DNA of 64,000 nucleotides from Citreicoccus inhibens (GTDB lineage Bacteria; Myxococcota; Myxococcia; Myxococcales; Myxococcaceae): contig NZ_JAHNZT010000005.1 of NCBI RefSeq assembly GCF_019039035.1, positions 310,001-374,000 on the forward strand, read 5' to 3'. The notes under the pieces were generated by a model. That model saw only the letters and a program-made list of their open reading frames with translations, had not been told where the DNA came from and searched no databases. Numbering within the stretch: the stretch's first letter is position 1; every line of letters starts with the position of its first letter. Positions 27,505-33,453 of the stretch are shown here, piece after piece. Both the position numbers and the translations under genes were made by a program.

Positions 27505-29012
27505 GGGCGGCGCTGTGCGGAGTGCTGGGGCTGCTGTTGTTGGGGGCGTGCACGGAGGCGTCGGTGACGGAAGGGGGCGGGCCTCCCGTGCGAGTGGGCT
27601 CGAAGAAGTTCACCGAGTCCGTGCTCCTGGGCGAGATGGTGACGCAGCTCGCGCGCGGCGCGGGCGCCAACGCCGTTCACCGCCGTGAGCTGGGCGGCAC
27701 CACGGTGCTCTGGGAGGCGCTGCGCCGAGGCGAGCTGGACATCTATCCGGAGTACACCGGCACGCTCCGGCAGGAGCTCTTCTCGCGCCGCCACCTCGCG
27801 GACGATGCGGCGTTGGCGAAGGCGCTCGCGGAGGAGGGCCTGCGCATGAGTCGCCCGCTGGGCTTCAACAACACCTACGCCCTGGGCATGAAGGAGGCGG
27901 AGGCCGAGAAGTCGGGCATCCGCCGCATCTCGGATTTGCGTCAGCACCCCGAGCTGAAGCTGGGCTTCAGCAATGAGTTCATGGACCGCGCGGATGGTTG
28001 GCCCGCGCTGCGCGCGCGCTATCAGCTCCCCCAGCGTGACGTGCGCGGGCTCGACCACGACCTCGCGTACCGGGGCATGGACTCGGGCGCCATCGACGTG
28101 ACGGACCTGTACTCGACGGACGCGGAGATCGCCGCGTACACGCTGCGCGTGCTGGAGGATGACCTCCACCACTTTCCCGCCTACGACGCCGTGCTCGTGT
28201 ACCGCGCGGATTGGGCGGAGCGGGAGCCGCGGGTGGCAGACGCGGTGCTGCGGCTCGAAGGGCACCTGTCCGAGCAGGACATGGTGGCGCTCAACGCCCG
28301 CGCGCGACTGGAGCGCGTGCCCGAGTCGCGCGTGTCCGCCGACTTCCTCGCCAGTCGGCTGGGCGTGGCGGCGAAGGTCCGGGATGAGGGCGCTGTGTCG
28401 CGCGTGTGGCGGCGCACGCGTGAGCACCTGTCGCTGGTGGGCGTGTCGCTCGCGGCGGCCATCGCGCTCGCGGTGCCGCTGGGGGTGCTCGCGTCGCGGC
28501 GGCCTCGGTTGGGGCAGGGCGTGCTGGGCTTCACCAGCATCGTGCAGACGGTGCCCTCGCTGGCGCTGCTGGTGTTCATGATTCCGCTGCTGGGCATCGG
28601 CTCGCGGCCGGCCATCGCGGCGCTGTTCCTCTACAGCCTCTTGCCCATCGTGCGGAACACCACCGCGGGGCTCTCGGGCATCCCAGGGGAGCTGCGCGAG
28701 TCCGCCGAGGCGCTGGGGCTTCCACCGCGCGCGCGGCTGTGGCGCATCGAGCTGCCGTTGGCCGCGCCCTCCATCCTCGCGGGCATCCAGACGGCGGCGG
28801 TCATCAACGTGGGCACCGCGACGCTCGGCGCGTTGGTGGGCGCGGGGGGCTACGGCCAGCCCATCCTCACGGGCATTCGCTTGGATGACGTGGGGTTGAT
28901 TCTGGAGGGCGCGGTGCCCGCGGCCGTGCTGGCCCTGCTCGTCAGTGGTCTGTTCGAGCTGGTGGAGCGCGGGGTGGTGCCCCGAGGGCTACGCCTGCGA
29001 GGCGACCCCTGA
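27501..29012 (+). CDS. Fused substrate-binding protein and permease of an OpuB/OpuC-type osmolyte transporter
   Basis: One 503-residue chain carries both extracytoplasmic binding protein and membrane domain. The N-terminus is a lipobox (LLLLGAC, Cys17). Residues about 30-295 are an OpuAC/OpuBC-type binding domain: VGSKKFTES, GELDIYPEYTGT and DLYSTDAEI. Residues about 310-500 are a BPD-type permease with five or six helices and an EAA loop (ESAEALGLPPRARLWRIELPLA). In the well-known fusions (OpuABC, BusAB) the permease comes first; here the binding domain is first. Lipid anchoring of a chain that continues into the membrane would place the binding domain between two anchors. Likely substrates are glycine betaine, choline or related quaternary amines. 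Its last 24 bases overlap the end of ctaA. Confidence 0.9.
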   Translation: MRAALCGVLGLLLLGACTEASVTEGGGPPVRVGSKKFTESVLLGEMVTQLARGAGANAVHRRELGGTTVLWEALRRGELDIYPEYTGTLRQELFSRRHLADDAALAKALAEEGLRMSRPLGFNNTYALGMKEAEAEKSGIRRISDLRQHPELKLGFSNEFMDRADGWPALRARYQLPQRDVRGLDHDLAYRGMDSGAIDVTDLYSTDAEIAAYTLRVLEDDLHHFPAYDAVLVYRADWAEREPRVADAVLRLEGHLSEQDMVALNARARLERVPESRVSADFLASRLGVAAKVRDEGAVSRVWRRTREHLSLVGVSLAAAIALAVPLGVLASRRPRLGQGVLGFTSIVQTVPSLALLVFMIPLLGIGSRPAIAALFLYSLLPIVRNTTAGLSGIPGELRESAEALGLPPRARLWRIELPLAAPSILAGIQTAAVINVGTATLGALVGAGGYGQPILTGIRLDDVGLILEGAVPAAVLALLVSGLFELVERGVVPRGLRLRGDP

Positions 29013-29966
29013 TAGCACCGGCGCTTGCTTCGCGTCGTAACCCGGCGCGTCCACCGCGAGCCCGGAGGCGCACAGCCGCACCACGCCCATCCACACCAGG
29101 TCCGCGAGCAGCAGGTGCACGAGCTGCATCCACACGGGCGCCAGCAGCACCAGATTGACCATGCCCGCGCAGAGCTGCGCCGCGTAGACGATGACGAGCA
29201 GCATCGACGCCCGTCGCACCTCCGCCGAAGGTCGCATCCGCGCGACGACGCGACTGGCCAGCACGAGCAGCGCGCCCATTCCCACCGCGAGCAGCGGGTG
29301 CAGCACGCGCCGGCGCACCAGCACGTGCGCCGTGTCGGACATGTCCTGGCGAATGCCCTCGGCCAGGCTGGACGCGGGGAAGAGGGTGTCGCCCAGCGCG
29401 GCCACGGCGCCGCTGACCCCGAGCACCAGCAGTCCCACCACGCTCGCGGCCAGGAGCACGCCCGTCCACCCCTGTCCGCGCCACGTCGCGCGCGCGCGCC
29501 CGGCCGACCACCACACCACCAGCGTCTGCGCGCCCACCAGGAGGAACGTGTTGATGAGGTGGATGCCCATCCACACCGCGCGCCCCATGGACTTGTTGTC
29601 CGCCACGTACTCGAGCAGCACGAGGCCCGCGCCCACCAACCCTTCCGTGAGCATGAACACCAGCGACATCACCGCCGCGCGGCGCACCGGGTGCCCCTTG
29701 GCGTGGGCGCGCAGGCCCCAGACGCACAGGGCCACGGCCAGCACCGTGGCCAGTCCGCTCGTCAGCCGGTGGGTGTACTCGATGACGGTGGCCAGGGTGG
29801 GCGCGCGAGGAACCACCTCGCCGTTGCACACCGGCCAGTGAGCGCCACAGCCCGCCCCCGAGCCTGTCGCACGGACGAAGGCGCCCCAGAGGATGACGCC
29901 CAGGGTGTAGGCGAGCACCAGGGAGCTGAAGATCCGGAACCGACGCGACGAGGCGGGAAACGTCAT
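28989..29966 (-). CDS. ctaA: Heme A synthase (CtaA/Cox15 family)
   Basis: ATG at 29966 begins MTFPASSRRF; the longer frame upstream lacks hydrophobic structure. The 325-residue protein has about eight membrane helices and the four heme-ligand histidine regions of the family: YTHRLTS, GIHLINTF, RRRVLHP and VHLLLAD. Early GAFVRATGSGAGCGAHWPVCNG carries the paired cysteines found in type-C CtaA proteins. It oxidises the C8 methyl of heme O to give heme A for aa3-type cytochrome oxidase, in the cytoplasmic membrane. No cytochrome oxidase genes lie in this window, so it is separate from its cluster. It converges on the transporter fusion with a 24-base overlap. Confidence 0.92.
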   Translation of the reverse strand: MTFPASSRRFRIFSSLVLAYTLGVILWGAFVRATGSGAGCGAHWPVCNGEVVPRAPTLATVIEYTHRLTSGLATVLAVALCVWGLRAHAKGHPVRRAAVMSLVFMLTEGLVGAGLVLLEYVADNKSMGRAVWMGIHLINTFLLVGAQTLVVWWSAGRARATWRGQGWTGVLLAASVVGLLVLGVSGAVAALGDTLFPASSLAEGIRQDMSDTAHVLVRRRVLHPLLAVGMGALLVLASRVVARMRPSAEVRRASMLLVIVYAAQLCAGMVNLVLLAPVWMQLVHLLLADLVWMGVVRLCASGLAVDAPGYDAKQAPVLSGVASQA

Positions 29967-30056: not shown

Positions 30057-30070
30057 CGTATCCGGATACG
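30057..30070. promoter_or_regulatory. Perfect 14-base palindrome, candidate activator site
   Basis: CGTATCCGGATACG is a perfect palindrome about 103-116 bases upstream of the start predicted for the RNA gene at 30172, and 91 bases upstream of the ctaA start on the other strand. The distance suits a sigma-54 activator site. Confidence 0.45.
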
Positions 30071-30095
30071 CCCGGTCGGATGCTCCCGAGCCCGG

Positions 30096-30123
30096 GTTTG
30101 GATGCACGGGATGATTTCCAAAC
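30096..30123. promoter_or_regulatory. Inverted repeat GTTTGGA-14-TCCAAAC, candidate activator site
   Basis: A perfect 7-base inverted repeat with a 14-base spacer, 24 bases upstream of the -24 element at 30147. Together with the palindrome at 30057 it could form a pair of regulator sites. Confidence 0.4.
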
Positions 30124-30146
30124 GCGGGGAACCGGCCCGTGCGCGC

Positions 30147-30162
30147 TGGCACGCGAGATGCT
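30147..30162 (+). promoter_or_regulatory. Sigma-54 (-24/-12) promoter of the pxr-like RNA
   Basis: TGGCACGCGAGATGCT matches the consensus TGGCACG-4-TTGCT at every arm position except one (A for T at the first -12 base). GG at 30148-30149 and GC at 30160-30161 are ten bases apart. The start would be near 30172-30173, just before the first hairpin. Confidence 0.75.
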
Positions 30163-30171
30163 CTGTGTCTG

Positions 30172-30327
30172 CCACGTGACGGATTTCGGAGGCGTCATGT
30201 TGGACGCCTCCTTGCCCCGGGTCGGTGCCCCCCCCTCGCCGACCCGCGGGCGTCTTTTCGAGGCCGTGAACGCAGCAGCAGTCGCACCCCGGGTCGGAGG
30301 TTCCCCCCCTGCCCGACCTGGGGTGTT
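30172..30327 (+). ncRNA. pxr: Putative Pxr-family small RNA (3' end uncertain)
   Basis: Downstream of the -24/-12 promoter come three stem-loops: a perfect 9-base stem with a 6-base loop (30188-30211), then two sister hairpins with stems built on CCCCGGGTCGG/CCGACC and C-rich loops, one with eight C (30215-30250) and one with seven C (30287-30323). The second hairpin is followed by TCTTTT (30253-30258), so a short form could end near 30258 and a long one near 30327. No reading frame with a ribosome-binding site is present. From memory, the Myxococcus xanthus sRNA Pxr, a repressor of starvation-induced development, has three stem-loops, two length forms, a sigma-54-type promoter and a run of seven cytosines that was hit by a mutation restoring development, and lies beside a sigma-54 activator gene. 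All of these match; identity is inferred. Confidence 0.6.
30215..30258 (+). terminator. Stem-loop with TCTTTT tail inside the pxr-like RNA
   Basis: The GGTCGG/CCGACC hairpin, extended by CCC/GGG with one bulge, is followed by CGTCTTTTCG. This is the best intrinsic-terminator form in the region and could set the 3' end of a short RNA. Confidence 0.5.
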
Positions 30328-30396
30328 CCTCGGCCCGAGGCTTCCCACAGGGGTGTGGGGAAAAGGGTGGAGCGCATCGCGGGCCGGGCTCCGGGC

Positions 30397-33306
<2,910 letters not shown>

Positions 33307-33453
33307 GGCAGTCCCCTTGCGCGTCCCCCGGCCGCGCGCCCTTCAATGTGTTCTCCCCCGCGGGATTGCAAACGAATGGACATGCATGCCGGGCGGGCGG
33401 GGCTCCGAGCGAATCACTCCCTCAACACCTCGGAGAGTTGTTAGCGTCACCGC

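Follow-up and report, generated by a model that had tools for sequence, protein, structure and literature searches.

We identified, in the 64 kb stretch of DNA analysed here (the window), a small RNA gene that is genuine, conserved, structured and distinct from Pxr, whose real gene is located on another contig. The elements found at 30147-30330 on the + strand (Table 1) very probably form a small regulatory RNA gene. The product is probably an activator-driven, Hfq-independent C-loop sRNA that would act by pairing with G-tracts in mRNA.

Table 1. Features of the sRNA locus (window positions; a dot marks elements given without strand).
Feature	Positions	Strand	Remarks
ctaA/COX15 gene	28989..29966	-	syntenic neighbour; upstream region holds the sRNA promoter
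Palindrome GTATCCGGATAC	30058..30069	.	candidate distal activator site
TTTGGA-N14-TCCAAA dyad	30097..30122	.	candidate upstream activator (enhancer) site
Sigma-54 promoter, TGGCACG-CGAG-ATGCT (-24 GG, -12 GC)	30147..30162	+	expected start about 30173
sRNA, short form, about 86 nt, to TCTTTT	30173..30258	+	predicted from promoter spacing and terminator
SL1, perfect 9-bp hairpin, GGAGGCGTC/GACGCCTCC	30188..30211	+	both-side change in 6/8 pairs
SL2, C8-loop hairpin (loop 30228-30235)	30214..30251	+	both-side change in 8/16 pairs
TCTTTT, terminator U-run of SL2	30253..30258	+	terminator scan
SL3, sister of SL2, C7 loop (30303-30309)	30285..30325	+	
Sigma-54 activator gene	30397..33306	-	putative driver of the sRNA
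AAGGGG ribosome-binding site of the activator	33313..33318	-	adjoins the G5 tract
G5 tract, activator mRNA leader	33325..33329	-	candidate C-loop pairing site

Genomic context and structure of the RNA

As had been proposed, a gene for a sigma-54 activator adjoins the RNA gene. The two are convergent, on opposite strands with their 3' ends facing. The activator is an AAA+ protein with ESGSGKE (Walker A) and GAYTGA motifs, a long middle region and an HTH-like N-terminus that is weakly recognised, under the Pfam cut-offs. Neither a C-terminal Fis helix-turn-helix nor a receiver domain was found in this protein. From relative map position alone, we would guess that the M. xanthus ortholog is MXAN_0603, which is listed as an NtrC-like activator (PMC8570273). 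A strong GC hairpin (30374-30415) lies over the activator stop codon and is possibly its transcription terminator. Between the sRNA and this stop codon is TTCCCACAGGGGTGTGGGGAA (30342-30363), which is kept in most Myxococcus-type loci and contains GGGGAA that could pair with UUCCCC loops.

The preliminary description of this DNA reported a 9-base hairpin, sister hairpins with C8 and C7 loops, and TCTTTT after the second hairpin, all of which we confirmed. The 169-nt stretch folds with an energy of -93.2 kcal/mol (z = -4.5); all 200 dinucleotide shuffles were less stable. The loop of SL2 carries a run of C6 or longer in every aligned relative, so that the conserved C-run apical loops of the C-rich-loop sRNA class are found in all of them. 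The U-run that follows SL2 in relatives is TTCTT, TCTTTT or CTTTT. In 10 loci, SL3 is picked up as a second copy by a covariance model of the sRNA (R1). Most relatives have SL3, which is lost in the M. xanthus clade, and in Archangium it also has a U-run after its hairpin; thus, two length forms may exist in Archangium. A long form of about 155 nt, through SL3, is possible for the window sRNA.

Conservation as a structured RNA

BLAST of the sRNA over relatives gave a convincing match in a congener only, because the stems change too fast for this method, and loci were recovered instead by synteny and covariance model. The block occurs at the matching place in more than 30 genomes, and Myxococcus (including M. 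xanthus), Pyxidicoccus and Archangium share the gene order ctaA / sRNA / sigma-54 activator. Among activator orthologs in named genomes, 13 of 14 have the block downstream on the opposite strand; the remaining locus (L037) ends with its contig. The elements of the block are, in order, GGATGATTTCC (exact or nearly so), TGGCAYG-N5-TGCT, a short hairpin, the C-loop hairpin and the U-run. One locus titled Comamonas sp. KCTC 72670 (BNCN01000008.1) is a typical Myxococcus locus, and is probably mislabelled.

Paired cells make up 93.3% of a MAFFT alignment (A3) and 97.2% of a model-aligned set (A5) covering Myxococcus, Archangium and genus g12. In A5, 14 of the 24 pairs (53 cells) show compensatory change on both sides, with covariation of 0.558 versus 0.267 +/- 0.021 after shuffling and at most 0.161 in slid controls; the model used to align A5 has the tested structure built in and so favours it, and A3 and the slid controls agree with the result. 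Helices that covary across relatives are not what is expected of random sequence, which the preliminary description had named among the observations that would count against its reading. That description also saw no protein frame that fits, and this held in the relatives, whose frames differ and carry stops. We identified no conserved reading frame in the sRNA region, and a protein-coding function was rejected on this basis.

Standard pairs number 348 of 358 when the alignment is read on the + strand, compared to 298 on the - strand, and G-U pairs exceed A-C pairs by 52 to 2. This asymmetry indicates that the + strand is functional. The activator gene ends on one side of the region and ctaA begins on the other, both genes are on the - strand, and the separate strong hairpin at 30374-30415 overlaps the activator stop. 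These features would suit hairpins working on the - strand, where they would form an attenuator-like 5' leader for ctaA or terminate transcription of the activator gene. We consider such a function very improbable given the direction of the G-U/A-C bias, the placement of the sigma-54 motif and U-runs on the + strand, and the retention of the RNA in one genome (G008) despite a gene between activator and RNA.

Promoter and link to the activator

The near-consensus sigma-54 promoter noted in the preliminary description is borne out as the sole such sequence in the window: TGGCAYRN5TGCW has a single match on both strands of the 64 kb (0.15 expected). TGGCAYG-N5-TGCT is retained in all related loci read that have both activator and RNA. 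The dyad, which includes GGATGATTTCC (30109-30119), lies some 27 nt upstream of the -24 element and is almost invariant from Myxococcus to Archangium. An alignment of upstream regions shows the palindrome core, TATCCGGA, in most Myxococcus relatives.

A sigma-54 promoter with C6 within about 20-80 nt was found at three loci in the genome that contains the window (pxr, the window sRNA and the leader of another gene), compared to zero in a control with the pattern reversed. The third locus (L135, G000:C79:137558) is sigma-54-like and just upstream of a lipoprotein-like gene. It was rejected as a further RNA of this kind, as it adjoins the start of another gene and no matching twin hairpin was seen there.

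The activator is present in 36 of 96 Myxococcaceae genomes, and in 35 of these the RNA is beside it (in G028 and G063 it was detected at relaxed thresholds only). The exception, G098, probably reflects a contig end. A weak match elsewhere in G098 was rejected as a copy of the sRNA, being another locus with a C-loop terminator (L083:4378-4448, - strand, on G098:C148). It has a GAGGTTCCCCCCCTCC loop, then TTTCTTTTT; the loop string is that of pxr and SL3, and the region may be mobile.

The four genomes of genus g12 have the RNA and lack the activator. Three g12 loci were read; in each, ctaA is on one side of the RNA and the usual flanking gene of the activator on the other. The hairpins SL1 and SL2 are retained in these three loci together with the C-loop and the U-run, while neither the sigma-54 motif nor GGATGATTTCC is present. 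A -24/-12 element that is conserved where the activator occurs, and gone from the g12 loci read where it is gone, is the pattern of a sigma-54-dependent sRNA. This joint loss is the strongest support for a promoter that would serve the neighbouring activator, and we regard it as likely that this activator drives the sRNA. Genus g12, which lost the activator, would then represent a natural promoter change on a retained sRNA. The DNA upstream of the RNA in these loci (L078, L079, L080) is AT-richer and includes TATGTT or TATAGG, which may belong to a promoter of sigma-70 type.

Relationship to Pxr

Pxr blocks fruiting-body development during growth. The preliminary description identified the RNA as Pxr and the locus as the developmental switch; neither identification survives, as the Pxr switch gene is on another contig with its own regulator. 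Letters of pxr were taken from primer sequences (PMC5684412, PMC5568312) and used for a pattern search of the genome that contains the window. The true ortholog, on contig G000:C101 (L002:1420-1538, -), is preceded by a TGGCATGGCACCTGCT promoter of its own, carries a C7 loop and ends in CTTCTTTT. Upstream of it, in the same direction, is a gene for an NtrC-type two-component regulator (pxrR), and a nuoN-like gene follows. A covariance model of pxr (R2, built from 16 pxr loci) gives the ortholog 143 bits and the window locus 7.6 bits (E 4.2). Thus, the covariance comparison that had been suggested as a check gave no significant match for the window sRNA. Models of the window sRNA miss most pxr loci; their best E values there are 0.001 (R1, at one g12 copy of pxr) and 0.4 (R3, not significant).

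The likeness to Pxr stands in part. Both RNAs occur in Myxococcaceae and have a sigma-54 promoter and an adjacent sigma-54 activator (PMC5684412, PMC5568312), and the window sRNA shares with Pxr a C7 apical loop, within an 11-nt string GGTTCCCCCCC (in SL3 here and in SL1 of pxr), and hairpins with TTCTTT-type ends. Unlike Pxr, the window sRNA has twin C-loop hairpins, and the order and stems of its hairpins differ; its activator is without a two-component receiver domain. The proposed resemblance of the gene neighbourhoods is likewise correct for adjacency and fails for arrangement: the downstream, co-directional placement relative to pxrR is seen at L002, whereas the window sRNA is convergent with its activator.

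The window sRNA could be a diverged paralog of pxr, a relocated copy that keeps Pxr-type control of development. The common promoter type, adjacent activator, GGTTCCCCCCC string and TTCTTT-type ends would fit this origin, as would the score of one relative of the sRNA (L042) with the pxr model (26.5 bits, E 5e-6). However, a reversed pxr terminator gave 26.3 bits in the pxr-model search, so such scores can arise from GC-rich hairpins alone. The non-significant score of the window locus, the weak scores of the reciprocal models, the differences in activator architecture, gene order and orientation, and the presence of pxr elsewhere in the same genomes make such a paralog improbable, although the two RNAs may have a distant common ancestor.

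We searched 58 Myxococcaceae genomes for pxr and found it in 47 (examples are G060, G061, G063, G008, G012, G029, G083 and G004, e.g., loci L124, L126, L128 and L129). Several tandem copies (up to five matches) occur in genera g8 and g12.

Predicted targets and comparison with other C-loop RNAs

The probable mode of action of an activator-driven C-loop sRNA would begin with the activator, which, on its signal, would bind the GGATGATTTCC region and switch the sRNA on. Without Hfq, the C-loops would then block translation by pairing with G-tracts located in or close to ribosome-binding sites. Myxobacteria are reported to be without hfq (PMC5684412, PMC5568312). The mRNA leader of the activator itself would be one likely target, which would establish negative feedback, as in LuxO/Qrr.

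A tract of G5-G7 occurs at one fixed place in all 19 aligned activator leaders, and nearly every one of these has an AAGGGG-type ribosome-binding site a few bases downstream of the tract. A G6 run is present in 16 of the 19 leaders, compared to 1.9% of random 60-nt stretches. The ctaA leaders carry G4-G6 runs too in most relatives, and thus the tract of the activator is not specific proof of feedback. In GC-rich genomes, G-tracts commonly act in ribosome binding, and that of the activator may serve translation only. By analogy with the systems below, we give feedback of the sRNA on the activator mRNA an even chance. The persistence of the RNA in g12, where the activator is missing, requires that there be further targets. 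A somewhat less probable reading is that the sRNA is transcribed by sigma-54 and acts on other trans targets, the activator G-tract being a translation signal without feedback. Retention of the RNA in g12 and the G-tracts of ctaA leaders are consistent with this, whereas the fixed position of the activator G5-G7 tract, while its flanks diverge, speaks for feedback.

By analogy, the window sRNA may work like the C-loop sRNAs 6C, sX13, RepG and possibly Pxr. The 6C/B11 RNAs of Actinobacteria (RF01066; PMC10470900) have, like the window sRNA, two hairpins with C-run loops. Their C-loops mediate repression of a leader with a G6 tract, that of eccB4, comparable to the G5 of the activator leader (PMC10470900). 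The window sRNA differs from 6C/B11 in its sigma-54 control and its phylum, and no match to RF01066 (gathering threshold 47 bits) was identified at the window locus by cmscan against Rfam or by a whole-genome search. In sX13 of Xanthomonas and HPnc5490/RepG of Helicobacter, C-rich apical loops act on G-rich leader motifs, and sX13 pairs with G-tracts independently of Hfq (PMC3771888). These RNAs have other promoters and hosts, and the likeness drawn here is one of loop features. In Vibrio, the sigma-54 activator LuxO induces the Qrr sRNAs that control its own mRNA (PMC5394107), the circuit proposed here. Unlike the window sRNA as proposed, the Qrr sRNAs act together with Hfq and are not C-loop RNAs, and LuxO is a response regulator.

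Candidates returned by cmscan at gathering and relaxed thresholds (Scr5676, with 19 bits, and animal microRNAs) were rejected as noise. Elsewhere in the same genome, a hairpin with a C6 loop (L131, G000:C107:2836-2907) scores 36 bits with the 6C family, under the cut-off of 47.

Implications for Myxococcaceae

In the literature searched, we found no myxobacterial trans-acting sRNA with a known role other than Pxr, and the direct targets of Pxr are unconfirmed (PMC11928866). The locus adds a defined candidate regulator and a candidate target site, and, for M. xanthus, a second RNA of the promoter class of Pxr with a nearly identical loop. It is conceivable, although we think it rather unlikely, that Myxococcaceae have a second sigma-54 C-loop sRNA system parallel to Pxr, in which an orphan activator and a twin-C-loop sRNA that feeds back on it are paired, and both sRNAs compete for mRNAs with G-tracts. 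If so, two sigma-54 signals would converge on one Hfq-free post-transcriptional code, for growth versus development. Hfq-free C-loop regulation is directly testable in the genetic model M. xanthus. An RNA-seq survey of non-coding RNAs of M. xanthus was reportedly carried out by Whitworth and Swain in 2020, and the M. xanthus transcript of this sRNA may already be catalogued there.
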